From Opitutaceae bacterium (GTDB lineage Bacteria; Verrucomicrobiota; Verrucomicrobiia; Opitutales; Opitutaceae): DNA of 64,000 nucleotides. Every line of letters begins with the position of its first letter. Positions within the stretch are counted from its first letter, which is position 1. Made by a program: the position numbers and the translations under genes. Positions 2,028 to 47,339 of the stretch are shown here, piece by piece. The notes under the pieces were generated by a model, which did no database searches, was not told the origin of the DNA, and saw nothing but the letters and a program-made list of their open reading frames with translations. The DNA lies in NCBI GenBank assembly GCA_015075305.1, contig JABTUS010000002.1, positions 372,001 through 436,000 of the forward strand. Direction: 5' to 3'.

Positions 2028-2947
2028 ACTTCCCCTTCCAGCCAGCTTCCCGGTCGCGAAAATCCAGCGGTTTCCGTCAACGCATCCGTCCTGGTCTTCA
2101 CTCCGCAGGCCAGAAGGCGCCCGTTAAATCGTTGAAAGAGCTCGACGCGTTCCTGCGCATATCCCGCGTCCACCAACCAGCGGCCAAGGGCCTCGCCATT
2201 CGGCGCAAACCAGTTCCATCCCTTTTCCAGTGTACCCGAATAGCCGCAGAGGCCCGTCCCTTCTGCTTCGCCATTGTGCGCCTTCGTCTCGACCACCAGC
2301 CGGCCGCCCACCTTGAGATAGGCAAAACAGATCCGCAAAAACAAGACAGGGTCGGTCACGTGATAGATCACACCGCTGCAATAAATCACGTCGAAACGCT
2401 GTTTCCACTCCGGGCGGTCCGCATAGAGGCTGTCGGTGGTGATGTTCGCGGGTATGCCCAGGAGCTTGCAGAGCCCCGACGCCGACTCCGCCGACCGTCG
2501 ATGTTCCTCCATCGCTTCCACGTCCGCGCCCAAACCGCGCAGCAGCAGCAAATCGCCGCCCGACCAGCAGCCAATGTCGAGAACACGTTTGCCCCGCAGG
2601 TCCGACGGGATGAATCCCCGTTCGATCGATTCAGTGCCAATCTCAACATGACGCGGCCCCATGGCACCGGTTCGCACGCATCCCCCGCCCCAATCGTAGT
2701 CGTGCCCCCAGACAAAAAAGTCGCGAAACGCCTGCGATGACGCCGCATGCCAGAAATTTGCCGGCGGCGAATCATCCGGAAAACGTTTCAGAAGTTCCTG
2801 ATGAATCGCCCGACGCTGCTCCGACGAAGAGGGCAGAACCGACTCCAAGGCCTGCCGGACGCATCTTTCCGCCAATGCGCGCTCCACTTTGACCGCAGCG
2901 GAAGCAAAGGCATGGGCCGTTTCATATCGGGCGCGATCCAACGTCAT
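2024..2947 (-). CDS. DUF1698/CmoB-like SAM-dependent methyltransferase
   Basis: This 307-residue protein has a central SAM domain. RGKRVLDIGCWSGGDLLLL is motif I, and the later DVIYCSGVIYHVTDPVLFLR matches the DUF1698 family, in which the YH-L/T-P segment follows strand 4. An HDYDWG-type segment precedes the SAM loop. The family includes the tRNA-modifying CmoB, but CmoB has its own N-terminal domain that I do not recognise here, so a small-molecule or glycan methyltransferase is as likely. I chose the ATG at 2947 (MTLDRARYE) because the longer frame runs into the divergent gene. It is transcribed away from the GT41 cluster and coupled to the next methyltransferase. Confidence 0.75.
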   Translation of the reverse strand: MTLDRARYETAHAFASAAVKVERALAERCVRQALESVLPSSSEQRRAIHQELLKRFPDDSPPANFWHAASSQAFRDFFVWGHDYDWGGGCVRTGAMGPRHVEIGTESIERGFIPSDLRGKRVLDIGCWSGGDLLLLRGLGADVEAMEEHRRSAESASGLCKLLGIPANITTDSLYADRPEWKQRFDVIYCSGVIYHVTDPVLFLRICFAYLKVGGRLVVETKAHNGEAEGTGLCGYSGTLEKGWNWFAPNGEALGRWLVDAGYAQERVELFQRFNGRLLACGVKTRTDALTETAGFSRPGSWLEGEV

Positions 2948-3038
2948 GGTCGCAAGCGAGTGTCCGCAATTTCGCCCCAAAGCAAGCCTATCCAAAGACC
3001 ATTTGCCATGTCGCCGTATCGCCCCAACGCTCGACAAA

Positions 3039-5141
3039 GTGACTCAGGCAGAAATCAACACCCGCTTGCAGCAGGCGATGGACCTGCACCAGCAGGGTCG
3101 CCTGCCGGAAGCCGAACGCGTGTACCGCGAGGTTCTGACGCACCAGCCCCGCAATGCGGCAGGCTTGCACCTTTTGGGCGTGCTGGCCCTGCAGGCTGGC
3201 AAACCGACCGACGCCGCGCGCTTGATTCGCTCCGCCCTGCAGATCGATCCCACCGAAGCCGCCGCATGGAGCAATTGCGGCGAAGCGCTGCGTGCACTCC
3301 ATCAATACGCCGAGGCTGAAGCCTGCTACCGCGAGGCCGTGAGGCGCGCTCCAGACAATGCCTCATTTTGGAGCAACCTGAGCATCGCGCTTCACTACCT
3401 GGATCGTATGCCGGAAGCCGAGAGCGCCTTGCGACGCTCCCTCGCACTTCAGCCCCAGAACACCAAGGCCTGGTGCAATCTCGGCAATGTGCTGAGGGTT
3501 CAGATGCGTTTCGCCGAGGCCGGTGAAGCTCTGCGGCAGGCGCTCACACTGCAACCCGCCATGCCTGAGGCATGGAACAGCCTGGGAGCGTTGCTGCGCG
3601 ATCAGAAACGCATCGAAGAAGCTGAACGCAGTTTCCGCAGGGCCATCGAAATCAATCCACGCTTTGCGGAGGCCTTCAGCAATCTGGGTTCCCTGCTCAA
3701 GGAGACGGGTCGTCTGAGCGAGGCGGAATCGATGTACCGGCAGTCGCTGGCACTGGCTCCCCACATCGCCGAAACGCACAGCGGGCTCGCTTCGACCCAG
3801 CGGGAGGCGGGACTGAACGATCTGGCATGCAAGGGTTATCAGGATGCCCTGCGGCTCAGCCCGCGCACGATTCGCTACCTGAGCAATCTGCTTTTCACGC
3901 AGGCCGCCAATGCCACCGCTCCCGACCCCGCGCATTTCGCCAACGCGCAGGCCTGGGGCAGGGCCTCCATGCGTCCTCCACTCTGCCAGGGACCGGTGGC
4001 CAGCGTCGTCAGCCGGCCCCTGCGCATCGGCTACCTCTCCGCCGATTTCAAGCACCACGCCATCGCGCGTTTCGTCGAATCGCTCTTCTCAGCCCACGAT
4101 CGGAACCGCGTCCAGGTCTTCGCCTACTCCAACGTCAAACATCCCGACGCGACAACCGAAAGCATCCAGTCCCGCGTCGACCACTGGCACGTCGTTGCAG
4201 CCCTGACCGACGAGGCCGCCGCGCGGCTCATCCACAGTCATCAGCTCGATCTCCTCATCGACCTGAACGCGCATACGCGCGACTCGCGCATTGGCATTCT
4301 TGGGTACAAGCCCGCTCCGATACAGGCCACATACCTCGGCTATTTTGCAACGACGGGACTGCCTGCAGTCGATTACTGGATCACGGACTCCATCCTTCAT
4401 CCGGAATCCACCAAGGAGCTCGCCGTCGAGCAACTGTGGCGCCTGCCCCGCTGCTGGATTGCCTATGGCCCGCCCTCGGATTCGCCCGAAGTCGGAATAC
4501 CGGCGACGCCGGGCCTGACCTTCGGTTCATACAACCACCTCTCAAAGATTGGCGAGTCCACACTGGATCTCTGGAGTTCGGTGCTGCGCGCGGTCCCTGA
4601 TTCCCGCCTCCTTCTGAAAACGCGACACCTCGGCGATCCTGGAATCCAGGAACGTGTGCGCGCCTCCTTCCGCTCCCGGGGCATCGACGCGGGCCGGCTC
4701 GATTTCGCCGGGCACACGCCGGGTCTTGGTGATCACCTGCGCGGGTATCACAACCTCGATATCGCGCTGGATCCGCATCCCTACAACGGAGGCACCACAA
4801 CGTGCGACGCCCTCTGGATGGGCGTGCCTGTTCTCACCCTGACCGGCGCGACCATGCCCGCACGCATGTCGACGTCGATGCTGACCTCCGTCGGCCTGCC
4901 GGACTGGATCGCGGACTCACCCGCGGATTTTGTGTCGCGCGCCGTCGCTCACGCCACCGCATGGCAGGCGCTATCACCCCGGGAAAAACTCGATCGCCGC
5001 CGTGCCATCCGCGCGCAAGCTGCTGCGAGTCCGCTGTTCGATGCGCGCGATCTCGCCCGCGCCCTCGAAAGCGCCTTTGAAGGCATGCTTGGGAAGCGGG
5101 CATCCAGCGACGCCCGTGTGCAACCGGTCGGGGTTGGATGA
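3039..5141 (+). CDS. TPR-GT41 O-GlcNAc-transferase-like protein (copy 1)
   Basis: This 700-residue protein has about eight tetratricopeptide repeats in residues 1-300 (recurring AW.NLG..L and FAEA..S.R.A patterns). A GT41/SPINDLY-type glycosyltransferase domain follows, from about residue 327 (PLRIGYLSADFKHHAI) to the C-terminus. Diagnostic blocks are DLLIDLNAHT, APIQATYLGYFATTGL with VDYWITD, and the GT-B sugar-nucleotide loop HPYNGGTTTCDALWMGVPVL. GT41 enzymes transfer a sugar, often GlcNAc from UDP-GlcNAc, to Ser/Thr of proteins. No signal peptide is seen, so it is cytoplasmic. I chose the GTG at 3039 because the start then aligns with both downstream paralogs (x-L-x-x-A-x-x-x-H-x-x-G-R). 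A frame from 2889 is also open. Confidence 0.88.
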   Translation: MTQAEINTRLQQAMDLHQQGRLPEAERVYREVLTHQPRNAAGLHLLGVLALQAGKPTDAARLIRSALQIDPTEAAAWSNCGEALRALHQYAEAEACYREAVRRAPDNASFWSNLSIALHYLDRMPEAESALRRSLALQPQNTKAWCNLGNVLRVQMRFAEAGEALRQALTLQPAMPEAWNSLGALLRDQKRIEEAERSFRRAIEINPRFAEAFSNLGSLLKETGRLSEAESMYRQSLALAPHIAETHSGLASTQREAGLNDLACKGYQDALRLSPRTIRYLSNLLFTQAANATAPDPAHFANAQAWGRASMRPPLCQGPVASVVSRPLRIGYLSADFKHHAIARFVESLFSAHDRNRVQVFAYSNVKHPDATTESIQSRVDHWHVVAALTDEAAARLIHSHQLDLLIDLNAHTRDSRIGILGYKPAPIQATYLGYFATTGLPAVDYWITDSILHPESTKELAVEQLWRLPRCWIAYGPPSDSPEVGIPATPGLTFGSYNHLSKIGESTLDLWSSVLRAVPDSRLLLKTRHLGDPGIQERVRASFRSRGIDAGRLDFAGHTPGLGDHLRGYHNLDIALDPHPYNGGTTTCDALWMGVPVLTLTGATMPARMSTSMLTSVGLPDWIADSPADFVSRAVAHATAWQALSPREKLDRRRAIRAQAAASPLFDARDLARALESAFEGMLGKRASSDARVQPVGVG

Positions 5142-5517
5142 AGAGCGCCAAACACTTGTCGGCACCCCTCGGCCGGAGGAACATGCATCCCCCCACCGCT
5201 GGACGGGCAGGCATCTCCCGTCCGCTATTTGTCAGCATCCTTCCGCTGGAGAAGCATGCATCCCCCCCTCCGCTGGAGGGGCATGCTTTGTCATGCCCAG
5301 GGTTCGCCCGTCGCGCCACAACGCCGGTGCCTATTCCCATCGACCCATTCCACCTATTCCTCTCCGCGTGCTCCGCGGCTCCGCGTGAAATTCTTCCGAC
5401 GCTGTTTTGCGACGCACGTCCCCAGGGCACGACGGAGCGTGCCCCTCCAAGAGCGGGTGAAAGGCGGCGCTTGATCCTCCCAAGGCACCGACTTGCAGGC
5501 ATTTCTTCACACGGGCA
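5142..5517 (+). repeat. Intergenic region with hairpin-forming mini-repeats
   Basis: These 376 bases between two GT41 genes encode no convincing protein. They hold a GC-rich unit related to TGCATCCCCC..CCGCTGGA, seen about three times (near 5180, 5235 and 5255). One copy forms a perfect hairpin, CCCCTCC-GCT-GGAGGGG (5265-5281), flanked by GCATG/CATGC. A second hairpin is GGGCACG-ACGGAG-CGTGCCC (5425-5444). A CTCCGCG/CTCCGCGGCTCCGCGTG track lies near 5358-5390. They look like dispersed intergenic repeats of the genome and have no T-tract. Confidence 0.5.
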
Positions 5518-7899
5518 ATGAACCTGGATCCCGCGCTTCAAAAGGCCGTCAATAACCACCGGGAGGGACGGCTCGACGCGGCGGAGGCGGGTTACCGCGA
5601 CTGGTTGATCGGCCACGCGCACGACGCCTTCGTGCTGCATCAGCTCGGCATCATCTGCCTGCAAAGATCACGTCCCGAACAGGCGCTGCCCTTCCTCGAG
5701 TCGGCTGCGGCCGGCAATGCCACCAATGCCACGGTTTTCCAGCACTGGGGCGACGCCCTGAGCGGTCTGCAACGCCACGCTGAAGCCGAAAGGCTCTATC
5801 GTCGCGGTCTCACCATCGACGCCCGGCACCTCACCTTGCGGATCCATCTGGGAAACGCACTTCGAGCCCAGGGCCGACTGCCCGAAGCCGAAAATGCCTA
5901 CCGCGAGGTGCTGTCCCACGACCCCGCACTCGCCCGCGCACACTGCAATCTCGGGCTGGTCCTGGCTGATCAGGGGAGATTCTCCGAGGCCTCCGCTTCG
6001 TTCCAGCAGGCCCTCGCCCGTGGAGACACCTCCTTGGAAACTGTCCTCGGCGCAGCCCAGGCTTTTCTCGAATCGGGCGGCTTCAGTCAGTGCGAGACGC
6101 TGCTGCACGGTGCACTCAAGCGCACCCCCCACGACGCACGCCTCCTCAGCGTGCTCGGCGAATCCCTGCGCCGCCGCCAGGCGTTGGATGAGGCTGAATC
6201 CGTTCTGAGACAGGCCGTCTCCAGCCAACCCGTCCCACTCGCCGCCTGGCACAATCTGGGCAAGCTTCTCATCGATCGCAGTCGTCCGCACGAGGCGGAA
6301 CGGATTTTTCGCCAACTGCTCGCCGCTGCGCCGCAACACCCCGAAGTGCAGCTCGGCCTGGCCGTCTCGTTGATCGCGCAGCGCCAGCGCACCGAGGCCG
6401 AATCGATCCTTCGCGCGCTGACCAGCAGCCATCCCAGGCACGTCAAGGGCTGGGTTTGCCTCTCACGCACCCTGCTCACCCGGGCGCCGTCCGAGGCCCT
6501 TTCCTTTGCCAAACGCGCCATCGGACTTGCACCGGATGACAATGACGCCGCCGCCGTTCTGGCGGAGGCCCAAGCGCAAAACGGCGATGCCGAAAGCGCC
6601 CTCGTCGTGCAGCGAAGCATCCTGGCAAAACCCAATCCTGATCCACAGATGGTCAGCAGCCTGCTCGCCATGGCGGGCTACGCCGGATCGCTCACCGCGG
6701 GTGAATACCTCGCCATCGCACGACAATGGAGTGCGTCCCTTCCGCGCACCCGGCCCTCCACCCCGCTTCCCGTTCCGGATCGTGCGCGGCCTCTCAAGGT
6801 TGGCTATGTTTCCGCGGACTTTCGCGACCACGCCGTCGTCTCCTTCTTTGAGCCCATCCTCGAAGCGCATGCCCGGCAGTCCCTGGATGTCTCCGTCTAC
6901 GCCAGCGTGCCGGCGCCGGATGCAGTGACCCAGCGTCTCAAATCACGGCTTCCATCCGATCGCTGGCACTTCATCCACTCCTTGTCCGACTCCGCCGCCG
7001 CGGAATTGATTCGCAGCCACCGGATCGATGTTCTCATCGACCTCGGCGGACACACACGCGGCAACCGCCTCGGAGCGCTAGCCCAGCGCGCCGCACCCGT
7101 GCAGGCCTGCTACCTTGGATACTATGCGACAACCGGACTCGCCGAAATGGACTACTGGATCGGTGATGAAACCATTCTGCCTCCATCGCTCGACTCCTGT
7201 TACCCGGAAAGGCTCTGGCGGCTCCCGCGATGCTGGCTGTCGTATCAGCCTCCCGCGAAATGTCCGGAGCCCGCGAGATGCGACGACGGTCACACGTTGA
7301 CATTCGGGAGCTTCAACAACCGCCAGAAAATTTCCCCCCGCACACTGGATCTCTGGAGTCTGGTGCTGCGGGAAATCCCTGATTCGCGTCTCATCGTGAA
7401 AACCGCCGGGCTGGAGGAAGCCGGGCAGTGCGACCAACTGGCGGAGGCCTTCTCCAGCCGGGGAGTCGACCCCCGGCGCATCGTCCTCCGCGCACCCGCC
7501 CCGGACCGGCACACGCATCTTCAGCAATACCAGGAAGTCGACATCGCACTCGACACAACGCCATTCACCGGAGGAACCACGACGGCTGAAAGTCTGTGGA
7601 TGGGCGTGCCGGTGCTGACCCTGCTGGGTGACACCATGCCGGGAAGGATGTCCGCCTCATTTCTACGCACGGTGGGATTGAATGACTGGATTGCGGAAAC
7701 TGAGGACGCGTTTGTCCGCCTCGCCCGGATGCAGGTGGACCGCATGCGCTCCCGGGGAGTCGACGAACGCTCGCGCACCCGACATGCTCTGCGCTCCATG
7801 GTCGCTGCAAGTCCGCTCTGCGACGCAAACGAGCTCGCCCGTCTTCTTGCTGAAGCCTATGGCTCGATGCGTGACGCATTTTTCAGCAGAAATTCCTGA
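5518..7899 (+). CDS. TPR-GT41 O-GlcNAc-transferase-like protein (copy 2)
   Basis: At 793 residues this is the longest of three tandem paralogs. Ten or so TPR units fill residues 1-400 (for example LHQLGIICLQRSRPEQAL and AHCNLGLVLADQGRFSEA). The GT41 domain starts near residue 425 with PLKVGYVSADFRDHAV, followed by DVLIDLGGHT, APVQACYLGYYATTGL, MDYWIGDE and the nucleotide loop TPFTGGTTTAESLWMGVPVL. The ATG at 5518 directly follows the repeat-bearing spacer. Copy 3 starts only 11 bases after its stop, so copies 2 and 3 are very likely one transcript. The longer TPR array than copies 1 and 3 suggests different protein targets. Confidence 0.88.
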   Translation: MNLDPALQKAVNNHREGRLDAAEAGYRDWLIGHAHDAFVLHQLGIICLQRSRPEQALPFLESAAAGNATNATVFQHWGDALSGLQRHAEAERLYRRGLTIDARHLTLRIHLGNALRAQGRLPEAENAYREVLSHDPALARAHCNLGLVLADQGRFSEASASFQQALARGDTSLETVLGAAQAFLESGGFSQCETLLHGALKRTPHDARLLSVLGESLRRRQALDEAESVLRQAVSSQPVPLAAWHNLGKLLIDRSRPHEAERIFRQLLAAAPQHPEVQLGLAVSLIAQRQRTEAESILRALTSSHPRHVKGWVCLSRTLLTRAPSEALSFAKRAIGLAPDDNDAAAVLAEAQAQNGDAESALVVQRSILAKPNPDPQMVSSLLAMAGYAGSLTAGEYLAIARQWSASLPRTRPSTPLPVPDRARPLKVGYVSADFRDHAVVSFFEPILEAHARQSLDVSVYASVPAPDAVTQRLKSRLPSDRWHFIHSLSDSAAAELIRSHRIDVLIDLGGHTRGNRLGALAQRAAPVQACYLGYYATTGLAEMDYWIGDETILPPSLDSCYPERLWRLPRCWLSYQPPAKCPEPARCDDGHTLTFGSFNNRQKISPRTLDLWSLVLREIPDSRLIVKTAGLEEAGQCDQLAEAFSSRGVDPRRIVLRAPAPDRHTHLQQYQEVDIALDTTPFTGGTTTAESLWMGVPVLTLLGDTMPGRMSASFLRTVGLNDWIAETEDAFVRLARMQVDRMRSRGVDERSRTRHALRSMVAASPLCDANELARLLAEAYGSMRDAFFSRNS

Positions 7900-7910
7900 C
7901 AGACGCCTCA

Positions 7911-9677
7911 ATGACACCGTTTGAATCAAGTCTTAGGATTGCGATTCAGGAGCATCAGGCAGGGCGTCATGATGTGGCGTTCAAGCTCTATCGCGACCTC
8001 CTCTCCGCCTCGCCGGGAGATCCGCTCGCCAATGCGCAAATGGGCCTGCTGCTGCACCAGCACGGAGCCCACGCACAGGCGATCGAACATTTTGACACAT
8101 CGTTGAAGGCGAACGAGGCGCAATCCGGTGTCTGGACGAATCGCGGCGAGGCCGCCCGTTCGCTGGACCGGCTTGCCGACGCCGAAGCCTGCTTCCGCCG
8201 CGCCCTGCAGTACAAGCCCGACTGCGCGATCACCCACAACAATCTCGGGCTTGTCCTCTATAGACGCGGCAGACTCAGCGAGGCGGAAGCCGCCTACCGG
8301 CAGTCGATCGCCATTTCTCCGGAAAGGGCCAAAACCTGGGCGAACCTCGCCAATGTGCTGCGCGACTGGATGCGGTTTGACGAATCGGAGGATGCCTTGC
8401 GCAAGGCGATCGAACTCGAGCCGGGCGAGAACATATCCCGCAGCAACCTGATTTTTCTCCTCGGTTACCGCTCGCAGGAGGCGCCCGGGGAAATTTATGC
8501 GGAGGCGCGCCAGTTCAGGGTGCCGGCCACCGCAGATCCCGCAGCTCCCGTCGCGCGCCCGCTGTCAGGCGGCCGCCGCCTGCGCATAGGCTACCTCTCG
8601 CCCGACTTCCGCGCACACTCCGTGGCGACCTTCATTGAGCCCGTCCTGGCCGGGCACGACACGCGCCGCGTCGAGGTGATCTGCTACGCAAATGTCGCCC
8701 GGCCCGATCCGGTGACGGACCGTTTGCGTTCACGCATGCCCGCGTGGCATTCGATCTACACCCTCAACGACACGGCGGCCACCACTCTGATTCGCAGCCA
8801 CCAGCTTGACGTGCTTGTGGATCTGGCCGGCCACACCGCGGGAAATCGCCTCGGGATCTTTTCCCGGCGCGCTGCACCCGTTCAGGCATGCTACCTCGGT
8901 TTCTTTGCGACGACTGGACTGCGCGCCATGGACTACTGGATCACGGACAACGTCCTGCACCCGCCCGACTATCAGGACCTGTTCGTGGAGCAGCTCTGGC
9001 GCCTTCCCCGCTGCTGGCTGGCGTACCAGCCTCCGGCGGAGGCGCCGGAACCCGATGTCTCGACGACGGCTGACGCCGTTGTTTTCGGATCTTTCAATCA
9101 GATCCTGAAAGTCACGAACACCACGGTTGGGTTGTGGAGCACCGTGCTTCGCCGGATTCCAGGATCGAGGCTCGTGCTGAAGTCGTGGAGTCTGCGTGAC
9201 AACGAATCCCGCGACCGCATCACGCGCCTCTTTGCCGAGCACCAAGTGGCGCCTGAAAGGATCGAAATGCTTCCCGCGTTCCCCAGTCGCGCGGAACACC
9301 TGGCTGCCTATCGCCGCATCGACATCGCCTTGGATACATTTCCTTACACCGGCGGCACCACCACCTGCGAGGCGCTTTGGATGGGCGTGCCCGTCGTCAC
9401 GCTGGCGGGTGGCACCATGCCTGCCCGCATGTCGACATCGATTCTGACCGCAGCGGGCTTCCCCGCCTGGTGTGCGCAGTCGCCCGAGGAGTTCGCGGAC
9501 ATCGCAGTTCGCCTCGCCGCCGAGCGTCGCTCGCGCGATCACGATGCGTGCCTCGATTCTCGCCGGAAACTGCGCAACGCCGTGGCACACTCCAGCCTTT
9601 GTGACGGAACGGCCCTGGCACAAGGGTTGGAAGAGGCGTACACGCGCATGGTGGAGGAATGCCTCCAGCGCCAATAG
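7911..9677 (+). CDS. TPR-GT41 O-GlcNAc-transferase-like protein (copy 3)
   Basis: This 588-residue paralog has the shortest TPR section (about five units in residues 1-190). Its GT41 domain, starting near residue 223 (RLRIGYLSPDFRAHSV), keeps DVLVDLAGHT, APVQACYLGFFATTGL, MDYWITDN and FPYTGGTTTCEALWMGVPVV. It follows copy 2 by 11 bases and so is probably co-transcribed. The catalytic domains of the three copies are very similar while the TPR counts differ. This fits local duplication with diversification of the substrate-binding solenoid, which is inference from the alignment by eye. Confidence 0.88.
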   Translation: MTPFESSLRIAIQEHQAGRHDVAFKLYRDLLSASPGDPLANAQMGLLLHQHGAHAQAIEHFDTSLKANEAQSGVWTNRGEAARSLDRLADAEACFRRALQYKPDCAITHNNLGLVLYRRGRLSEAEAAYRQSIAISPERAKTWANLANVLRDWMRFDESEDALRKAIELEPGENISRSNLIFLLGYRSQEAPGEIYAEARQFRVPATADPAAPVARPLSGGRRLRIGYLSPDFRAHSVATFIEPVLAGHDTRRVEVICYANVARPDPVTDRLRSRMPAWHSIYTLNDTAATTLIRSHQLDVLVDLAGHTAGNRLGIFSRRAAPVQACYLGFFATTGLRAMDYWITDNVLHPPDYQDLFVEQLWRLPRCWLAYQPPAEAPEPDVSTTADAVVFGSFNQILKVTNTTVGLWSTVLRRIPGSRLVLKSWSLRDNESRDRITRLFAEHQVAPERIEMLPAFPSRAEHLAAYRRIDIALDTFPYTGGTTTCEALWMGVPVVTLAGGTMPARMSTSILTAAGFPAWCAQSPEEFADIAVRLAAERRSRDHDACLDSRRKLRNAVAHSSLCDGTALAQGLEEAYTRMVEECLQRQ

Positions 9678-17689: not shown

Positions 17690-18481
17690 TCAGGAAGCGA
17701 TCCGAGGCCTCAATTGCTGCGCCGACGGCAGTACGCAGCGGTATTGCTGCAGCTTCAACTGCCCCAGAATCTCCGTCACGGCTTTGACACGCACATCCGG
17801 ATGCAAGCGCTCGCCCTCATGAACAAGGATGATCGCACCGGGTTTCACCCGAGACATGACGCGCCTTGCAACGGAAGCAGCCGAACGCGCCGTTGAATCC
17901 CAGCTTCGCAGCGACCAGTGGACGCAGGTGAGGCCGCGCTTCCGAAGCTCGCGGCCGAGAAGGAGGTTCTTGATTCCGACCGGCGCCCTGAACCAGAGCA
18001 CCGGACCGCCACGATTGATCGTTGCCGCTGCATACGCCTCCAGAGCCTTGTCGAGCTCACGCGCCAGCCTGCGCGGACCGGCGAACCACAGTGTTCCCGA
18101 CGGATGCGTGTGGGTGTGATGACCCACATCATGGCCGGCATCCAGAATCGAACGCACCAAGTCCGGATGCTGCGCGGCCTTTTCACCGACGAGGAAGAAT
18201 GTGGCCCGGGCCTGATGCTCGGCGAGTACCGCCAGAATGCGCGGTGTGTCATGGGGGTCGGGGCCATCGTCAATTGTCAGCCAGACTTCGCGCTCACGCG
18301 TCTCGAACGAGGTGACAACGCGCAACAATCCCTGGGCACCCGGAACCAGGACCTGGTAGAGAACAAGCATGTCCGCGCCGAGGAAGAAAAACCATGCCAA
18401 GCCCGGCAGGCCCGCCGCGAGCCAGCACCAGGCCGCAGCTCCCTTGCCAGCTCCGTAGGAAAAGATAATCCAGCGTGCCAT
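17690..18481 (-). CDS. Polysaccharide deacetylase (NodB homology domain)
   Basis: This 263-residue protein has one or two N-terminal hydrophobic segments (residues 14-50), then a NodB fold. VWLTIDDGPDPHDTP holds the catalytic and metal Asp pair (71-72), and GHHTHTHPSG (around 121-127) holds the metal-binding His residues. LWFRAPVG and CVHWSLRSWDS follow, and AIILVHEG carries the last catalytic His. It would remove acetyl groups from an amino-sugar polymer in the envelope. It follows the PAP2 gene on the same strand by 28 bases, so they share a transcript. The ATG at 18481 gives an anchor with a short cytoplasmic lead. Confidence 0.88.
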   Translation of the reverse strand: MARWIIFSYGAGKGAAAWCWLAAGLPGLAWFFFLGADMLVLYQVLVPGAQGLLRVVTSFETREREVWLTIDDGPDPHDTPRILAVLAEHQARATFFLVGEKAAQHPDLVRSILDAGHDVGHHTHTHPSGTLWFAGPRRLARELDKALEAYAAATINRGGPVLWFRAPVGIKNLLLGRELRKRGLTCVHWSLRSWDSTARSAASVARRVMSRVKPGAIILVHEGERLHPDVRVKAVTEILGQLKLQQYRCVLPSAQQLRPRIAS

Positions 18482-18509
18482 TCTTGCATCTTCCCTGGCA
18501 GCGGCCGCC

Positions 18510-19253
18510 CTATTCGCAATCGCGAAGCGGGCCGGAGCCAGGCGTCCAGCAGCCGTCCGCACCATGCCGCACGATCACGAACCTGCGCCACGCGGCCCGA
18601 TGGAGCAGCGCGACCGCGATCCCCAGAGCAGCCCCGCCCACCGCATCCCACAGGACATGCTGCTTCGTTCCCATCGTGGAAACCGCAATCGCCAGGGCCC
18701 AGACGGCGTTCAGCCAGCGCATGACCATCGATGCATTCATTCGCTTCAGCATGTTTTCGAGCCAGAACGCGCTGAAGCATGCGAATGCGACGTGAAGGGA
18801 TGGACAGGCGTTCCCCGAGGCATCCACGGTCTTGAGCACGCGCATCGGTCCCACCCAGTCAGCGCCGGGATCGATCGCCGGCACGATCGTCGGCCAGAAG
18901 AAAAAAAAGGCCAGCCCAACCGCGCTCAACACCACGGCGCCCGCTCCGTACACCGCCAGTTCACGTCTGTCCGTCAGCAGGAAAGGTGGAAGCGTCACGT
19001 AAACCCACAGCGAGACATAGGGAGCCATCCACCAGGGACTGAACGCGATCCAGCGGTCAACGAACGTGAGTGGCATCACCGTAACCGGAAACAAGGGATG
19101 GCGCAGGACGTGAAAGTACGCGGTGAAAAAGAGCGTGAAGCCAACCGTCGCACCCACGAGCTTGTAGGGCCACAGCCTCGAGAACCGCCCCAGGGCCGTT
19201 TCCCTGGACTGCTCGAAAGCTGGCGCTGGACGGGACTCCACCATTGGCGGCAT
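18510..19253 (-). CDS. PAP2-superfamily membrane phosphatase
   Basis: This 247-residue polytopic membrane protein has about six hydrophobic helices. The acid-phosphatase motifs are NACPSLHVAFACFSAFW (PSxH) and STMGTKQHVLWDAVGGAALG (x-H-x-x-x-D). It resembles the phosphatidic-acid/inositol-phosphorylceramide-synthase branch and probably acts on a lipid phosphate at the outer face of the inner membrane. The ATG at 19253 or 19244 (MPPM pair) is the most likely start, since earlier residues are not hydrophobic and lie near the divergent acyltransferase promoter region. Confidence 0.82.
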   Translation of the reverse strand: MPPMVESRPAPAFEQSRETALGRFSRLWPYKLVGATVGFTLFFTAYFHVLRHPLFPVTVMPLTFVDRWIAFSPWWMAPYVSLWVYVTLPPFLLTDRRELAVYGAGAVVLSAVGLAFFFFWPTIVPAIDPGADWVGPMRVLKTVDASGNACPSLHVAFACFSAFWLENMLKRMNASMVMRWLNAVWALAIAVSTMGTKQHVLWDAVGGAALGIAVALLHRAAWRRFVIVRHGADGCWTPGSGPLRDCE

Positions 19254-19374
19254 GTTCACAGCAAGTCCCAGCCTTCCATTGCTCGCGAGTACAATGTGAT
19301 GGCGCGCCCAATCATCGCATTCTTGCCGCACATTGCATTGTCGTTTCTCAATTCGTCAGTCATTGCAGAACACC

Positions 19375-20166
19375 ATGATCTTCCGAACCGCCGCAATAGT
19401 TGCAGGATACTACTTCACCCTGCTGATGTTCGGTCTGTTTGGAGCGGTCATCACACTCGTTTCGCTGATCTCGGAGATATTCCCGTCCACGCCTCGCACG
19501 GAGCGCGCATTTCAGCGGTTGATCCACCGCCAGTTCGCCCTGTTCACCTGGTGGACCGGCATATCCGGTCTTTTCAAGGTCCGCCATCACGGCTTCGAGC
19601 ACATTCCCAATGATCCGAAACGAGGCCTCGTGGTGGTCGCCAACCATCCGAGCCTCGTTGACATCACGGTTCTCCTGTCGCGCATCCCCGAGGCGCTCTG
19701 CGTCTTCAAACCCGCGATCCGGCGGAATCCCATTCTCGGCTCGGGAGCGCGTCGCGCGGGCTATCTGGCCAGCGATGGCGGACACGAGATCCTGCGGACC
19801 GCGGCTGAAAAGGTCGCCGCCGGCAACCGGCTGATCGTCTTCCCCGAGGGCACACGCACTCCCCCGGGCACCCACCTGCTTCCCTTCAAACCCGGATTCG
19901 TCATCGTCGCCCGCCGCGCGCAGGTCCCCATCCAGCTTGTCCGCATCACGCTCAGCAGACCGGTTCTCTCGAAGGATCACACCTGGTGGAAGGTTCAGCC
20001 ACTGCCCGCGAGGGCGGACATCGTGGCCGGGCCGCTGATTTCCGTGGCGCCTGAGGCAGACACGGCAAGCGTTTGCGAGCAGATCGAACGTTGGTTCAGG
20101 TCCGGCCAGATGCCCGATCCCCGTGCTGGTGCCAGGCGTTCCGCGGAGGCCGCTTTCCAGCAATAG
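19375..20166 (+). CDS. PlsC-like 1-acyl-glycerol-phosphate-type acyltransferase
   Basis: The protein has 263 residues. An N-terminal hydrophobic anchor (about 8-30) is followed by the LPLAT motifs VVVANHPSLVD (NH-x4-D catalytic block), FKPAIRRNPILG and IVFPEGTRTPPGT. It transfers an acyl group to a lipid or other hydroxyl at the inner membrane. It is the first gene of a four-gene operon (acyltransferase, GT2, MMPL exporter, AMP-ligase), the order found among tailoring and export genes of aryl-polyene and xanthomonadin clusters. There it would attach the aryl polyene to a lipid, which is inference. The ATG at 19375 is chosen. Confidence 0.85.
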   Translation: MIFRTAAIVAGYYFTLLMFGLFGAVITLVSLISEIFPSTPRTERAFQRLIHRQFALFTWWTGISGLFKVRHHGFEHIPNDPKRGLVVVANHPSLVDITVLLSRIPEALCVFKPAIRRNPILGSGARRAGYLASDGGHEILRTAAEKVAAGNRLIVFPEGTRTPPGTHLLPFKPGFVIVARRAQVPIQLVRITLSRPVLSKDHTWWKVQPLPARADIVAGPLISVAPEADTASVCEQIERWFRSGQMPDPRAGARRSAEAAFQQ

Positions 20167-20195
20167 CGGCGGGCGCTCACAACCTTCGCTTCGGC

Positions 20196-20996
20196 ATGCC
20201 CCCTGGCCCAACCCACCTGATCCTGCTGCCTTCCTACAATTCTGGAACCAGGCTGACAGCGGTGGTGCGCGAAGTCCTGCCGCTCGGCTGGCCCACGCTC
20301 GTGGTGATCGATGGAAGCACCGATGGCAGCGAGCGCGAGGTGCTGGCGTTGGCCGGCTTTCATGAAAACCTGTCGGTGATTTGCCGTCCAACCAATCAAG
20401 GCAAGGGAGCCGCCGTGCTCGAAGGAGCCCGCGTCGCGCTGGATCGCGGATTCACCCACGCTCTCGTCATGGATTCTGATGGCCAGCATCCGGCCGGGAG
20501 CATCGCCACCTTCATGGAGGTTTCCATGCGGAATCCCGAAGCTTTGATTGTCGGCGAGCCGATATTCCCCGACAACATCCCGCGGGAACGCCTGCACGGA
20601 CGAAAACTCAGCAATGGCCTCGTCTGGGTGGAACTGCTCGGCCGGGGAATCAATGATGTCCTGTTCGGCTTCCGGGTGTATCCGCTGGCACCGCTCCTCG
20701 CGGCGCTGAAGGACCGCAGCGGCGGGCGTCGCTACGACTTCGAAACCGAAGCGGCCGTCCGGCTCGCCTGGGCCGGCATCATGCCGGTTAATGTGCGCGC
20801 CCCGGTGCGATACCTTTCCCGCGAGGAAGGCGGCATTTCCCATTTCCACTACGTCCGCGACAATGCTCGACTGCTGATCATGCACGTCAAACTGCTCGCC
20901 GAGCTTCTTCTGTTCCGCTGGCCCGCACTCCTGCGGCATCGTCGCGCATGGAAGGGTCACCCGGCATGGCCGCGTCTTCATCGCGAAGGCCCATGA
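20196..20996 (+). CDS. Glycosyltransferase family 2 (DPM-synthase-like)
   Basis: This 266-residue GT-A enzyme has LLPSYNSGTRLTAVV and LVVIDGSTDGSE at the nucleotide-binding start, then RPTNQGKGAAVLEGA. VMDSDGQHPAG is the D-x-D-like catalytic metal block. A short hydrophobic C-terminus (LLIMHVKLLAELLLF) may attach it to the membrane. The ATG at 20196 follows the acyltransferase by 30 bases, and the stop overlaps the MMPL start (ATGA). It probably glycosylates the lipid or aryl-polyene product of this operon. Confidence 0.85.
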   Translation: MPPGPTHLILLPSYNSGTRLTAVVREVLPLGWPTLVVIDGSTDGSEREVLALAGFHENLSVICRPTNQGKGAAVLEGARVALDRGFTHALVMDSDGQHPAGSIATFMEVSMRNPEALIVGEPIFPDNIPRERLHGRKLSNGLVWVELLGRGINDVLFGFRVYPLAPLLAALKDRSGGRRYDFETEAAVRLAWAGIMPVNVRAPVRYLSREEGGISHFHYVRDNARLLIMHVKLLAELLLFRWPALLRHRRAWKGHPAWPRLHREGP

Positions 20997-23344
20997 AACT
21001 GCTCCGAGGAAAATGGGGGCCCGGAACAGCCCTGCTCGCTTTCTGCATTCTGTGCGGCGTGTGGCTGGCGCGGCTGGATTATCGCAGGAGCATCACGACC
21101 GACGTGCTGGACCTGGTTCCCGACTCGGGTGCCTCACAGTCACCGGAGCTTGCACTCGTGCGCTCCCTCGCCAGCCAGGCGGAGATCCGGACCATGCTTT
21201 TCGAAATCACGATGCCGGACGGCGGTGATGTGCCGGCGGATGCGGGAAGGGAATTCGCCGCGGCGTTGCTCAAGGATCCTGCGTTCGCCCAGGCATTTTC
21301 CATGGGCGACACCTCCTCCCGCGACGCACTGGGGAAGGAGCTGTTCGAGCAGCGCTTTTCATTGCTCCTGCCATTCTGGCTCGAAAGTCATCGGGCGGAA
21401 TACAACGCACAAGGCCGGCCCGGAGGGAATTTTTCGGCATGGCTTGCGGAAAAAAGCGCAGCCGATCTGTCGCGATTTCTCGCCAAGCCGCAGGCCCTCG
21501 CATTCCAGGACCTGATTCCATCCGATCCCCTCCTCCTGCTGCCGGGCGCGATCGATCGCCTGCAGGACGGTCTGGCTTATGCGCAGTCCGAATCGTCGCC
21601 GTCCCACGCGCTCGTCTGGGCGCAACTGGCTGAATCGCCGTTGAGCGAGGCCGGCCAGGGACCTGCATTTGACGCCATTGCGCGGGCGACCGACGGGGTC
21701 CGGAAGCTGCGTCCGGGCCTGAAGGTCGCCTTCACCGGTGTCAACCGATTCGCAGCGGCGAGCCGCCGGGTGATCGAACGCGAGGTGACCCTTCTCAACA
21801 CACTCTCCCTCGCCGCGGTCCTGATCGTCGCCTTCACCTTCATCCGTTCCCCGCTTCGCGGGTTGCACCTGATCCCCGTCGTCGCGCTCTCAATACTCGG
21901 GGCCTGGGTGGCGGTGACGCTGGCCTTCGCCCGCGTGCACATCCTCGTGTTCGTGGTCGGCTCGCTGCTGACCGGTGTGGCCATCGACTACGGTTTCTAC
22001 CTCTACATGCAGCCCGCCGCGTATCCAGGCGAGGACTACTGGTCAAAGGTGCGCCGCCTGCTCAAGCCGCTGCTCGCGAGCTGCGTCACGACCGTGGCCG
22101 GTTTCGCGCTTCTGCTGCTTTCGGATTTCCCCTTCATCCGACAGCTCGGCGTGTTCGTCGGCGGCGGACTCTTGAGCGCGCTGGGCGTGGCGATCCTCTA
22201 TTTCGCGATCGTGAAGAACCCATTCCTGGAATCTCGAAGCTTCGGCGGCGGCCAGGCCCTCGCACCGCGCACGCGCCGCCGGCTTCGGCATTTCGTCCTC
22301 GCGCTCTGGGTCGGCGCACTGCCCGGACTGGCCTTCCTGACCTGGCGCGATGACATCCGCGATCTTGATATTCCGTCCGATGCCTTGAAACGCGAGGATG
22401 CGCGCATCCGCGGGCTCTTCGGCGACAAGGACGGGGAGCGCATGGTGTACCTCACGCATGGCGACACGCTCACCGCCGCACGCGCGTCACTCGAAAAACT
22501 GCAGTCGTGGTTGAACGTTGCGAGCGCCGGACGGGCGCGTGCGGTCAGCCTCGGCGCCGTGGTGCCCACCGCCGCCGCCTTCGAACGCGCGCAGGACTTC
22601 ATTCACAACGAAAAGGAATTCCCGGCGGAGTTGAAGTCGGCGCTGGCGAAGGAGGGATTCGAAGAGGAGGGCTTCAACGCATTCTTTGCGGACTATGCCA
22701 GAATCATGCAGTCGCCGCCCGAGTCGTCCTTTCTCCCCGCCTTCACCCACCTGCGCGAAAAACTGGTCGGGCCGCTTGGTCTGCTCGTCAATATGACCCC
22801 GACATCGAGTTGGTTCGTCACGCTGGTTGAACACGCCCCCTCAGCCGCTCCTCCCGAGGAGGCGTCAACAATCAGCACCGGTCAGCTTCAAACGCTGAAT
22901 CGCGTCTTCGCCGACTACCGGGCCTCCACGCTTCGACTGAGCCTCATCGGCCTTGGCATCGTCGGTCTCGGCGTATTCCTGACGTACGGGTTCCGCGACG
23001 GGCTTCGCATCTTCGCGATTCCCTGCGGCGCCTGTCTCGGAGTCTTTGGTCTCTTCGGGTGGATCGGACACCCGCTCAATCTGTTTCACCTGCTCGGCGC
23101 CTTCCTGGGCGTGTGTCTCACGCACAACTATTCCATCTTTTCCGCAACGTCAGCCTACGAGCACAAGTCAGTCCCGGTTTCCGTGCGCGTCTCCGCGCTG
23201 ACGACTGCTGCATCCTTCGGCGTACTTGCGATCAGCAGCATCCCCGTCGTGCGCGCATTGGGAACAACCGTCGCCAGCATGGTGATCACCGCGCTCGTGG
23301 TGATCGAACTCGAGCACCTCTCCGGCCTCGGCAAACGCGCATGA
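20993..23344 (+). CDS. RND/MMPL-family exporter
   Basis: The protein has 783 residues with an N-terminal helix, a large periplasmic loop (about 35-245) and a bundle of about five helices (ILSLAAVLIVAFTF, LHLIPVVALSILGAWVAV, VFVVGSLLTGVAIDYGFYLYM). A second loop and second bundle near the C-terminus follow, so the RND repeat is complete. The D-Y pair in GVAIDYGFYLY is the usual proton-relay site, while the second half has CLTHNYSIFS at that place. It is the export pump of the operon. Aryl-polyene clusters carry a pump of this class. I chose the ATG at 20993 for its ATGA overlap with the GT2 gene. An ATG at 20948 is also in frame. Confidence 0.85.
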   Translation: MKLLRGKWGPGTALLAFCILCGVWLARLDYRRSITTDVLDLVPDSGASQSPELALVRSLASQAEIRTMLFEITMPDGGDVPADAGREFAAALLKDPAFAQAFSMGDTSSRDALGKELFEQRFSLLLPFWLESHRAEYNAQGRPGGNFSAWLAEKSAADLSRFLAKPQALAFQDLIPSDPLLLLPGAIDRLQDGLAYAQSESSPSHALVWAQLAESPLSEAGQGPAFDAIARATDGVRKLRPGLKVAFTGVNRFAAASRRVIEREVTLLNTLSLAAVLIVAFTFIRSPLRGLHLIPVVALSILGAWVAVTLAFARVHILVFVVGSLLTGVAIDYGFYLYMQPAAYPGEDYWSKVRRLLKPLLASCVTTVAGFALLLLSDFPFIRQLGVFVGGGLLSALGVAILYFAIVKNPFLESRSFGGGQALAPRTRRRLRHFVLALWVGALPGLAFLTWRDDIRDLDIPSDALKREDARIRGLFGDKDGERMVYLTHGDTLTAARASLEKLQSWLNVASAGRARAVSLGAVVPTAAAFERAQDFIHNEKEFPAELKSALAKEGFEEEGFNAFFADYARIMQSPPESSFLPAFTHLREKLVGPLGLLVNMTPTSSWFVTLVEHAPSAAPPEEASTISTGQLQTLNRVFADYRASTLRLSLIGLGIVGLGVFLTYGFRDGLRIFAIPCGACLGVFGLFGWIGHPLNLFHLLGAFLGVCLTHNYSIFSATSAYEHKSVPVSVRVSALTTAASFGVLAISSIPVVRALGTTVASMVITALVVIELEHLSGLGKRA

Positions 23345-24717
23345 ATCCGTCCCTTCCCGCCTGCTGGTTGGAAACAGTCCGTCTCCACGGACGAAAGGTC
23401 GCTCTGATCGAAGCCTCCACCGGAACGCGCTGCACGTTTCAGCAGTTGAACGACCGCGCGGATGCCTGGGCGCGGGATCACGGGGCATCAATTCCTCCCG
23501 GCCTGGAAGGTCGAAGTGTCGCTTTCTCCGTCCCCAACGGCATTCGCTGGTTTGAACTCATGCTGGGCCTGCTGAAACTCGGCGCAATTCCCGTGCCGCT
23601 CGATGCCGCGGAGCCGGTCGACAGTCAGAAAAACCTGGTGAAACTGCTGCGCTCGGTCGCGCGATGGGAAAACGATCGACTCGTCCCAGTGCAACACGGT
23701 AGTGGCGGCGCGAAACGGCACCGAACAACCCGGCCCTGCCTTATCAAGCTCACCTCCGGCTCAACCGGCAGCCCCCGCCCGCTTCTTTTCAGCCACGACG
23801 AAATGATCGCCGATGCGAGGCAGGTGATGTCGTCCATGGGCATCACTTCGGAAGACCGGAATCATGCGCTGATTCCGTTCGGCCATTCCTACGGTCTCGG
23901 CAACCTCACGCTCCCGCTCATGATCGCCGGCGTATCCGTCGTCTGCGGAACCTCGCCCTTTCCGCATGCGATCGCCGCCGACCTCAGGCAGTGGAAGTCG
24001 ACCGTTTTCCCCGCGGTGCCCGCCATTCTCCGCGCCCTGGCCGGCGCCGACGGCATCCGCCTTGGCAGACTTCGCCTCATCATCTCGGCAGGCGCGCCGC
24101 TTCCCGTCGAAACCGCCGGGGCCTTTCGCCAGCGTTACGGTCGGAGCATTCACAGCTTCTATGGATCGAGCGAAACCGGAGGCATCAGCTTTGACAGGGA
24201 TGGACGTGCAACGCTCGAAGGATCCGTTGGCACGGCCATGGACGGCGTTACCCTCACACGGCTTGGCACCGACCGCCTCCGAGTCAGCAGTCCCGCGGTT
24301 TTCACAGCCGGCAATCGAAGAAAGCACAACCGGCACGGGGCCTGGGTCATGGCGGATCGAGTCCGGATCGGCGCCGACCGCACCATCCGCCTGCTTGGCC
24401 GGCGCGGCACCACCGTGAAGATCGCGGGCCGCCGAGTGGAACTCGCCGAAATCGCCGCCGCCATCAAGCGTCTGCCCGGCGTCGATGACGCCTGGGTAGC
24501 GGTCGGAGGCACGGACGAACAGGTCATCGGGGCAGCCGTCGCTTCAGGCCGCTCGTCATCGGAACTTCGGGATGCATTGGGCCGAATCCTGTCCGCCTGG
24601 AAAATTCCCAGGAAGTGGCTCGTGCTGCCAGCCCTGCCTCAAACCGAACGCGGGAAGCCGGACTCCCGCGCACTCAATTCCGCGCTCTTCGGTCCGGCCA
24701 GTCCCCGCTCCAGCTGA
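23341..24717 (+). CDS. AMP-dependent acyl/aryl-CoA synthetase (ligase)
   Basis: This 458-residue ANL-superfamily enzyme starts with an ATGA overlap to the exporter. P-loop-like motif A3 is LIKLTSGSTGSPRPLLFSHDE. ALIPFGHSYGLGNL and SFYGSSETGGISFD (A5) are clear, and the C-terminal hinge and lysine region is LLGRRGTTVKIAGRRVELAEI. It activates a carboxylic acid as an adenylate. Given the adjacent chorismatase, a hydroxybenzoate starter unit is a reasonable substrate, which is inference. It is shorter than typical fatty-acyl-CoA synthetases (500-550), like the ligases of aryl-polyene clusters. Confidence 0.83.
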   Translation: MNPSLPACWLETVRLHGRKVALIEASTGTRCTFQQLNDRADAWARDHGASIPPGLEGRSVAFSVPNGIRWFELMLGLLKLGAIPVPLDAAEPVDSQKNLVKLLRSVARWENDRLVPVQHGSGGAKRHRTTRPCLIKLTSGSTGSPRPLLFSHDEMIADARQVMSSMGITSEDRNHALIPFGHSYGLGNLTLPLMIAGVSVVCGTSPFPHAIAADLRQWKSTVFPAVPAILRALAGADGIRLGRLRLIISAGAPLPVETAGAFRQRYGRSIHSFYGSSETGGISFDRDGRATLEGSVGTAMDGVTLTRLGTDRLRVSSPAVFTAGNRRKHNRHGAWVMADRVRIGADRTIRLLGRRGTTVKIAGRRVELAEIAAAIKRLPGVDDAWVAVGGTDEQVIGAAVASGRSSSELRDALGRILSAWKIPRKWLVLPALPQTERGKPDSRALNSALFGPASPRSS

Positions 24718-24767
24718 TCGGCAAAGCGGAAACGGGCCTCCGTCTCCACGCACACACGCCAACTCAG

Positions 24768-25685
24768 CTACCCAAGGATCGTGGCTTCGATCTCGACCGA
24801 AAGATCCGACCGGCAAATGTCCGCGCGCAGGTACGACACGGCGTCGCCCGCACGCAGGAGTTGCGCTTCCAACACGCGCCTCACATCCCGCAGCTCGTCC
24901 GCATTCCTCAAATAAACCTTGAACGCGCGCCTCCCGGTGCGCCGGGCGGATGCACCGGACAACGGCGTCCCGCATTCGGCGGCGATGGACTCCAGATTCT
25001 CCAGCGTATAGCGAAGCTGCTCCCGCGTGTTGCCAGGCGCCATGGTCTCATGTCCGCGGATCGCAGCCGTTCCAGAAATGAACACGTCCGACGTCCCGCC
25101 GTGCTCGACAACCGTCGCGCGTGCAAAGCTGGGGGAGCGCGGACCGTAGTGCTTCGGATAGTCGTAGGCCGGAACCTGCAGAGGATTCTCGAAATGCCGC
25201 GTCGGTGAACGGGAGGCGGCAAAAACAACAGTCAGCGACATCGAATCCGTGCCCACCGCCGAACCGGAGGGCAGCGTCTTCCGGAAACCCGCGCCAAGCC
25301 TGTCCTCGAAGGCGAGCGAGCGCCCGCGGCAGAAGACCCGGTAATTTTCCATCGAGCCATCACCCACGGCGTTGATGGCAGGAACGTAGTTCCAGATCCG
25401 CGCGATATGAAAGCCCTGGCTTGCGGCCAGGATCTGGTCGTAGACCGCCCTGGTTTCCCGTTCGAGCGTCTCCGACCGCACCCCCACCGAAGCCACTCCG
25501 AGCAGCCACGCCCCCGTTTCAAACAGCTCAAGCAATCCCCTGCGCCCCCGGCTCACGGCCGGTCCAAAGAGCCGTTCAACCCGATCTCCCGCCAGTGCCG
25601 GAACGCCAATCCTAAGCGCGTTCGCTTCGTTGCCCGTCAGCGAAATGCCAAACGGCACGGCGGATTCTTTGGTGAACGGTGACAT
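24768..25685 (-). CDS. Chorismatase, FkbO/Hyg5/XanB2 family
   Basis: The 305-residue protein matches the chorismatase family, with a RidA-like C-terminal half. Blocks seen are HIARIWNYVPAINAVGDGSMENYRVF, then NPLQVPAYDYPKHYGPRSPSF and FISGTAAIRGHETM. Near the C-terminus YLRADICRSDLSVEIEATI contains a Cys and the conserved catalytic Glu. The family hydrolyses chorismate to a dihydroxycyclohexadiene acid (FkbO) or to 3-/4-hydroxybenzoate (Hyg5, XanB2); which one cannot be decided here. It converges on the AMP-ligase with 50 bases between. The ATG at 25685 is used, because the 14 residues before it look unrelated. Confidence 0.8.
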   Translation of the reverse strand: MSPFTKESAVPFGISLTGNEANALRIGVPALAGDRVERLFGPAVSRGRRGLLELFETGAWLLGVASVGVRSETLERETRAVYDQILAASQGFHIARIWNYVPAINAVGDGSMENYRVFCRGRSLAFEDRLGAGFRKTLPSGSAVGTDSMSLTVVFAASRSPTRHFENPLQVPAYDYPKHYGPRSPSFARATVVEHGGTSDVFISGTAAIRGHETMAPGNTREQLRYTLENLESIAAECGTPLSGASARRTGRRAFKVYLRNADELRDVRRVLEAQLLRAGDAVSYLRADICRSDLSVEIEATILG

Positions 25686-25739
25686 GAATGCGTAAGAAAT
25701 ACTTGGGATCCGGAAACTGTCGCACAAGCCAAGGCAGGG

Positions 25740-47221: not shown

Positions 47222-47339
47222 CGTCGACCTCCAAGCGGGATCAAATGGAGGAGGATCGGCCCAAGGTTCGCTGTTGGTTTCCACGGTCATCGGAGGGATC
47301 TTCGCTTCAAGCGACGCCGGCTTGACAGGAAACCTCCCA

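Follow-up and report, generated by a model that had tools for sequence, protein, structure and literature searches.

Genes at the locus

The window analyzed here is a stretch of 64,000 nucleotides from an Opitutaceae bacterium (GenBank assembly GCA_015075305.1, contig JABTUS010000002.1, positions 372,001 to 436,000), and our subject is a compact group of genes within it that resembles the starter-supply, decoration, and export genes of aryl-polyene (APE) pigment pathways, together with its putative partners elsewhere in the genome. Throughout, G000 denotes the genome itself, C2 the contig that holds the window, and C3 and C10 two other contigs of the same genome; G-numbers stand for related genomes (G309, G329, G275, and G347 are of the same genus) and L-numbers for the contig stretches examined. 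A sequence-only reading of the window had described four tightly coupled plus-strand genes with a chorismatase gene 50 bases away, and reading frames and Pfam bear this out. The genes are as follows.

17690-18565, minus strand: polysaccharide deacetylase (PF01522, 1e-26), near the cluster in G309, G359, and many relatives
18510-19331, minus strand: PAP2-family membrane phosphatase (PF14378/PF01569), start codon uncertain, with the same neighbors in G309 and many relatives
19375-20166, plus strand: PlsC-type acyltransferase (PF01553, 5e-18)
20196-20996, plus strand: GT2 glycosyltransferase, of the type of the glycosyltransferase half of ApeJ (PF00535, 7e-14), neighbors conserved
20993-23344, plus strand: MMPL/RND exporter, ApeM type (PF03176, 1e-11)
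23341-24717, plus strand: AMP-dependent aryl ligase, ApeH/ArcT type (PF00501, 5e-40; PF13193)
24768-25685, minus strand: FkbO/Hyg5/XanB2-type chorismatase (PF21168, 7e-20)

All five genes from the acyltransferase to the chorismatase lie above curated Pfam cut-offs. The gap between the acyltransferase and GT2 genes measures 29 bases (30 had been given), ATGA overlaps join GT2 to MMPL and MMPL to the AMP-ligase, and 50 bases separate the AMP-ligase stop from the convergent chorismatase. The deacetylase and PAP2 genes (17690-19331), overlooked in the sequence-only reading, adjoin the cluster in many relatives. Of 41 genomes, G000 counted, 21 have the five-gene set within a single retrieved stretch; these 41 were chosen for a match to at least one of the genes, and many of the stretches cut the cluster. 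His91/Asp96 and the FPEGTR motif of the acyltransferase (43 homologues) and the TSGxTG loop and C-terminal RGK of the AMP-ligase (42 homologues) are near-invariant; these residues, like those named below for the two ketosynthases and the carrier proteins, are regarded as catalytic in their families. The family and location of the ligase are those expected for activation of hydroxybenzoate, its putative substrate, which sequence by itself does not reveal.

No ketosynthase (KS) or acyl carrier protein (ACP) gene had been seen nearby, and none was found: Pfam scanning of 40 of the 51 gene-like open reading frames in the window returned no KS, ACP, or FabA/FabZ domain, and the six KS matches to PF00109 in the genome all lie on contigs other than C2. 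The single short-chain dehydrogenase/reductase (SDR)-type protein among the 40 scanned frames is of the 3Beta_HSD/epimerase family (47274-48395).

Identity of the chorismatase

Up to E 0.01, the only sequence matches of the window chorismatase in PDB were 5ag3 and 5a3k (Hyg5) and 4bps (FkbO); we take the first two to be Hyg5, a name that fits their Glu-334 numbering. Structural modeling, set beforehand as a possible refutation of this assignment, leaves it standing as regards the fold. The AlphaFold model (mean predicted local distance difference test score [pLDDT], 89.6; 18-row alignment) predicts a chorismatase fold, with chorismatases as all seven best Foldseek matches in PDB (5a3k, 4bps, 5ag3; E 6e-29 to 2e-26), and Gly205, Cys291, and Glu298 are invariant in 18 of 18 aligned proteins. 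Glu298 is the counterpart of Hyg5 Glu-334, which has been named as the acid (PMC7170507). The window protein has the chorismatase fold and the conserved catalytic Glu. Many genomes of the order also carry proteins of a second chorismatase-like group, which is more distant (E about 1e-8 to 1e-17).

Synthase genes on two other contigs

The sequence-only reading had allowed for a polyene synthase encoded at another place in the genome, and this alternative holds: KS, chain-length factor (CLF), and ACP genes lie on C3 and C10. One of the six PF00109 places is on C10, within a five-gene run. In many relatives, the neighborhood of the chorismatase gene holds five genes of this type, the window genes, and three more, all in one cluster; the three additional genes encode a 370-residue KS, a 217-residue protein, and LolA. 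Searching G000 with the 370-residue KS of a relative recovered a KS on C3 (65% identity) that the PF00109 search had missed, and the genome thus has, at three places, all fifteen genes sought, a set drawn from the window and from the clusters of relatives. The two further loci read, in gene order:

C10: UbiE-like methyltransferase, ACP, FabB-like KS, ACP, LpxL-like acyltransferase (named by sight; no NCBIfam match)
C3: ApeO-like KS, 217-residue ApeC-like protein, LolA

The best PDB matches of the C3 KS are 7f28_B and 6qsp_A, from ApeO-ApeC entries, and its Cys142/His265/His298 are near-invariant. A PDB profile search with the 217-residue protein, up to E 1, gave only 7f28_A (1.6e-4) and 6qsp_B (1.1e-3); a relative's version, modeled with AlphaFold (pLDDT 77.4), has 6qsp_B, 7f28_C, and 7f28_A as its top three structural matches, with modest TM-scores of 0.42-0.57. 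ApeC is described as one thiolase fold, half the size of a KS (PMC8358021). The C3 217-residue protein is a half-size ApeC-like CLF, and its neighbor is an ApeO-like KS. Two earlier labels were dropped: "CLF" for the C3 ketosynthase, which has the KS Cys and two His and whose neighbors in PDB are the larger chains of the ApeO-ApeC entries, and "KSyn2" for the half-size protein, which is its ApeC-like partner. A PF13723 search of G000 gave nothing over the cut-off, from which absence of ApeC does not follow, because Pfam searching up to E 0.01 likewise fails to match the ApeC of the relative. The relative's LolA matches PF19574 around its cut-off. On C10, the KS residues Cys174/His312/His349 and one serine in each ACP (Ser83 and Ser43) are near-invariant.

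An accessory gene near the first ACP varies among relatives (Trp-halogenase/FAD oxidoreductase [PF04820], B12-binding radical SAM, or UbiE-like methyltransferase; L107:10059-11345, L100:11653-13275, and L101:3354-4130), which suggests differing product decorations. On C3, a small MazF/PemK-like gene, recognized by eye (L118:7138-7452), adjoins the LolA end of the trio.

Co-occurrence and separation of the three parts

We scored 120 family genomes for three markers, the chorismatase, ApeO, and LpxL, at E thresholds of 1e-50, 1e-90, and 1e-20, the first two set after wide gaps were seen in the lists. Chorismatase and ApeO are both present in 38 genomes and both absent from 76; two have the chorismatase only (G290, 84% complete; G334, 72%) and four ApeO only (G091, G305, G343, and G345), an association with a Fisher p of 3e-24, kinship ignored. 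For chorismatase and LpxL, the counts are 40 with both, 0 with chorismatase only, 5 with LpxL only, and 75 with neither. Because members with both and members with neither mix in at least 10 genera (g1, g2, g5, g6, g8, g10, g11, g19, g104, and g114), the chorismatase-ApeO link is not one clade's accident. Gene-order comparison in many relatives and co-occurrence across genomes agree that these genes are kept together, a point on which the sequence-only reading could have failed. Chorismatase-primed gene sets are common yet patchy in the family (40 of 120 genomes over the threshold), and pigments there are little known.

In most related genomes examined, the window, C10, and C3 genes form one cluster. 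Of 42 genomes, 38 have ApeO and LpxL on one contig no more than 30 kb apart; the others are G000, G309, G345 (65% complete), and G294, in which ApeO is at the end of a contig. Chorismatase and ApeO are this close in 31 of 38 genomes. The remaining seven are G000, G309, G302 (one contig, 0.8 Mb between the genes), G327, and three fragmented genomes with the two genes on different contigs (G350, G351, and G294). In the near relative G359, the chorismatase is on another contig than the acyltransferase-ligase operon. Either the chorismatase or the operon has thus moved in further lineages too.

An assembly error as the source of the split is highly improbable. The assembly consists of 17 contigs and is 97.6% complete, which gives such an error some room, but each part lies inside a contig (551, 447, and 235 kb), and the congener G309, an independent assembly, carries the three parts on three contigs with the same neighbors, as far as its C3 contig reaches into ApeO (identity to G000, 83% for ApeO over 299 residues and 82% for LpxL). 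The C10 part recurs with the same flanks in another congener, G329 (L180, G329:C42). Pairwise alignments of upstream DNA from two loci and one blastn comparison made no common motif evident, and no proper motif search was made.

Probable mosaic ancestry of the pathway genes

A mosaic origin was hypothesized from identities before trees were built. By best blastp match, all five C10 genes, all five genes of the window set, and the PAP2 gene point to one group of eight genomes; ApeO matches best to G342, ApeC to G050, and LolA to G172, none of them among the eight, and the deacetylase also matches best to G342. In the concatenated C10 tree (42 rows, G286 left out), the genus groups with G154, G317, G232, G288, G333, and G289 (100/99) and then with G313 (100/100). 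The C2 tree (38 rows) places it with those six and G286 (99) and with G313 and G350 (100). In the C3 trio tree (44 rows), the genus joins G050, G342, G240, and G296 (97/96), and the eight kin of the C2 and C10 parts form their own clade that excludes it (100/99). By the approximately unbiased (AU) test, C10 data reject a tree in which the genus joins the G050 group (p 6e-7), and C3 data reject one in which it joins the eight (p=0.0149). These results indicate that the C3 trio (KS, CLF, and LolA) differs in ancestry from the C2 and C10 parts. Some features of the data weigh against this: the C2 tree is a quick tree without bootstraps and includes 12 rows of odd composition, G309 fills 37% of the columns in the C3 tree, the AU rejection by C3 data is moderate and compares two trees, and LolA alone is weakly resolved (best match G172, 45%).

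A contig from Opitutaceae UBA6669 (L164), sister of the genus in a 27-row tree (100/100), carries an intermediate arrangement: ACP-LpxL-acyltransferase-GT2-MMPL-ligase plus the chorismatase in a single run, with the slots for ApeO and ApeC (between ACP and LpxL) and for LolA (between GT2 and MMPL) empty. Among open reading frames of at least 40 residues on this 15-kb contig, phmmer up to E 10 found no ApeO, ApeC, or LolA; MMPL, GT2, and LpxL are in pieces in the assembly. The simplest order of events is that the trio was replaced elsewhere, the old copies were lost, and the rest of the cluster broke in two. The identities of an ACP-FabZ fusion protein encoded on contig C7 (57-58% to g4, 61-68% to most of the C2 and C10 kin) are a weak clue to the direction of the mosaic.

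We tentatively suggest, with appreciable doubt, that a working pathway swapped its KS-CLF-LolA for the trio of another lineage, retained its native genes for starter supply, carrier proteins, tailoring, and export, and now runs from three unlinked loci. If so, the swap would have reset chain length and would be a natural experiment on KS-CLF interchangeability, with states before, between, and after it in sequenced relatives. The series of relatives, from a contiguous cluster through a cluster without KS-CLF-LolA to the three-part layout with a foreign-looking trio, would allow a direct test of KS-CLF swapping and its effect on chain length.

Proposed pathway and its alternatives

We consider it probable that the genes described for the window, which would supply the starter, decorate the product, and export it, make up one third of an APE/xanthomonadin-type lipid pathway that is spread over three unlinked loci, with a C3 trio of different ancestry. 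Modeling the route on the Escherichia coli/Xenorhabdus pathway (PMC8253772) and on Azoarcus (PMC3949708), we infer that the three parts work jointly, most likely toward a hydroxybenzoate-primed aryl-polyene lipid. The chorismatase would convert chorismate to 3- and/or 4-hydroxybenzoate, which the AMP-ligase would load on a C10 ACP; the C3 ApeO-like KS and its ApeC-like partner would elongate the chain, aided by the C10 FabB-like KS in the place of ApeR. Enzymes not seen at these loci would have to reduce and dehydrate the chain, and the fatty acid synthesis proteins FabG/FabZ are the probable candidates. The C10 methyltransferase would cap the aryl group, the two acyltransferases and GT2 would join the chain to a lipid, and the window MMPL and C3 LolA would carry the product to the outer membrane. 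A single ancestral cluster would have given rise to the three-part layout.

The pathway type and the unlinked arrangement have precedent. Azoarcus sp. BH72 is reported to make arcuflavin from two unlinked arc loci (arcA-L and arcM-X), insertion in either of which abolishes the pigment (PMC3949708). The arc genes share with the present set a XanB2-type chorismatase, AMP-ligase, KS, a protein with an N-terminal KS domain (ArcJ), ACP, glycosyltransferase, acyltransferases, LolA, exporter, a polysaccharide deacetylase (the ArcN family counterpart), and methyltransferase; Azoarcus alone has its own reductase and dehydratases (ArcH, ArcI, and ArcS), a halogenase, and a dialkylresorcinol cluster. Where Azoarcus has two loci, G000 has three, one of them differing in ancestry, and a search for dedicated dehydratases of the ApeI/ApeP type found none. 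The APE clusters of E. coli CFT073, Xenorhabdus doucetiae, and Acinetobacter baumannii (PMC8253772, PMC8358021) also have ApeO with a half-size ApeC, a FabB-like ApeR, two ACPs, the ApeH ligase, ApeM, a LolA-like ApeL, acyltransferase/glycosyltransferase, and the ApeB methyltransferase. The E. coli APE system differs in being a single locus that includes ApeQ, ApeI, and ApeP, and a chorismatase is absent from its gene table.

Earlier reports of arylpolyene regions in Verrucomicrobiota exist (PMC9865893, PMC12193912), including two in Opitutales bins (PMC8277422). For Congregicoccus parvus ASA1 (Opitutales), the text consulted gives the antiSMASH type only (PMC12193912); the counterpart in G280 is contiguous, and we infer that the reported region corresponds to the chorismatase-ApeO stretch there. 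Judging by literature listings, it is new that the pathway is laid out in three parts in this family, that the ancestry of its KS-CLF-LolA trio conflicts with that of the rest, and that an intermediate such as L164 exists; no earlier report of a split in Opitutaceae appeared by title or abstract among the top-ranked literature, a scope that mostly leaves out subscription journals. Cluster-based mining would misread this genome: its window shows tailoring genes without a synthase, and PF00109 misses the C3 KS as PF13723 misses the ApeC-like protein.

Several observations weigh against the three-locus APE reading. The window chorismatase scores 199 bits against NCBIfam TIGR04444, below the 325-bit cut-off; none of 273 genomes of the order reaches that cut-off, so it may have been set for another branch. 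PMC7170507 gives three marker residues for the CH-Hyg5 subtype, and two of them are kept (Gly205 and Cys291); at the third position, Gly in enzymes of the Hyg5 type, the window protein has Ala143, in a register deduced from the Glu-325/Glu-334 offset. Whether such an enzyme yields 3-hydroxybenzoate, 4-hydroxybenzoate, or both is, according to PMC3949708, not settled by sequence alone. The C10 KS is nearer FabB (3oyt, 2.6e-66) than the ApeR chains 4ewg (1.2e-48) and 7f27 (2.7e-47), and its ApeR role therefore rests on cluster position. In G309, the C3 contig ends inside ApeO, and ApeC and LolA were not seen in that genome. The congener G329 (91% complete) has the C10 part and no chorismatase, no ApeO over the threshold, and no AMP-ligase match; one pathway part may persist alone.

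The pattern within the genus bears on the view that the three loci are a decaying remnant, no longer used together after break-up and heading for loss, an outcome that we regard as improbable. Its support lies in G329, which by the three markers has LpxL only, and in G275 and G347, which have none and in which chorismatase, ApeO, LpxL, and AMP-ligase all fall below threshold. The fourth other member, G309, has all three markers, with the ApeO and LpxL identities given above, and in G000 itself the genes at the three loci are open reading frames with their catalytic residues retained.

Reduction and dehydration form the remaining difficulty. An ApeI-like dehydratase (PF22818) was over the cut-off in 0 of 7 genomes, G000 included (best match, 19.1 of 28.5 bits), and an ApeP-like protein (PF22817) in 2 of 8, both of other families, and in 0 of 6 family genomes including G000; inspection found no SDR or ketoreductase gene at the three loci, and no search aimed at a ketoreductase (ApeQ) was made. 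Since a dedicated ApeI/ApeP dehydratase was looked for and not found, we do not class this system as a full member of the aryl-polyene pathways, and the degree of chain reduction may differ from that of APE. The C7 ACP-FabZ fusion, which lies with a FabB-like KS (L013), was considered as the pathway dehydratase and set aside as not pathway specific, since 111 of 120 family genomes have it whether or not they have the pathway; it could still serve it. The same genes might yield a different product, a partly reduced or phenolic aryl-polyketide lipid made by a KS/CLF without its own ketoreductase and dehydratase, and the family clusters examined do have no ketoreductase or dehydratase gene between the core genes. 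We find this unlikely: the remaining APE parts are present, FabG/FabZ could serve, G280 holds chorismatase, ligase, ACPs, KS, and ApeO- and ApeC-like genes in one stretch, and C. parvus ASA1 is reported to have a region typed as arylpolyene by antiSMASH (PMC12193912).

Other ketosynthases and neighboring genes

Other KS loci of the genome, and genes flanking the cluster in the window, are listed here.

C4: FabF, over the NCBIfam cut-off
C1 (L010:7678-10740): FabF-like KS, ACP, and CrtI-like oxidoreductase
C11 (L011:10522-11727): lone KS in a stretch of 47% GC (62-65% at the other loci), adjoined by histidine-kinase-like genes, the kinase recognized by eye
C9 (L008): a further KS locus
C2, downstream flank beyond the chorismatase: GntR regulator (Pfam)
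C2, 26461-29254, next after the GntR gene: putative GlcD and GlcF, by sequence inspection only

The chorismatase and GntR genes are divergent and about 54 bases apart (25686-25739), a layout also present in G309 and L149. Upstream in the window, at 2889-9677, three tandem genes encode tetratricopeptide (TPR) repeats together with an OGT-like domain of glycosyltransferase family 41.

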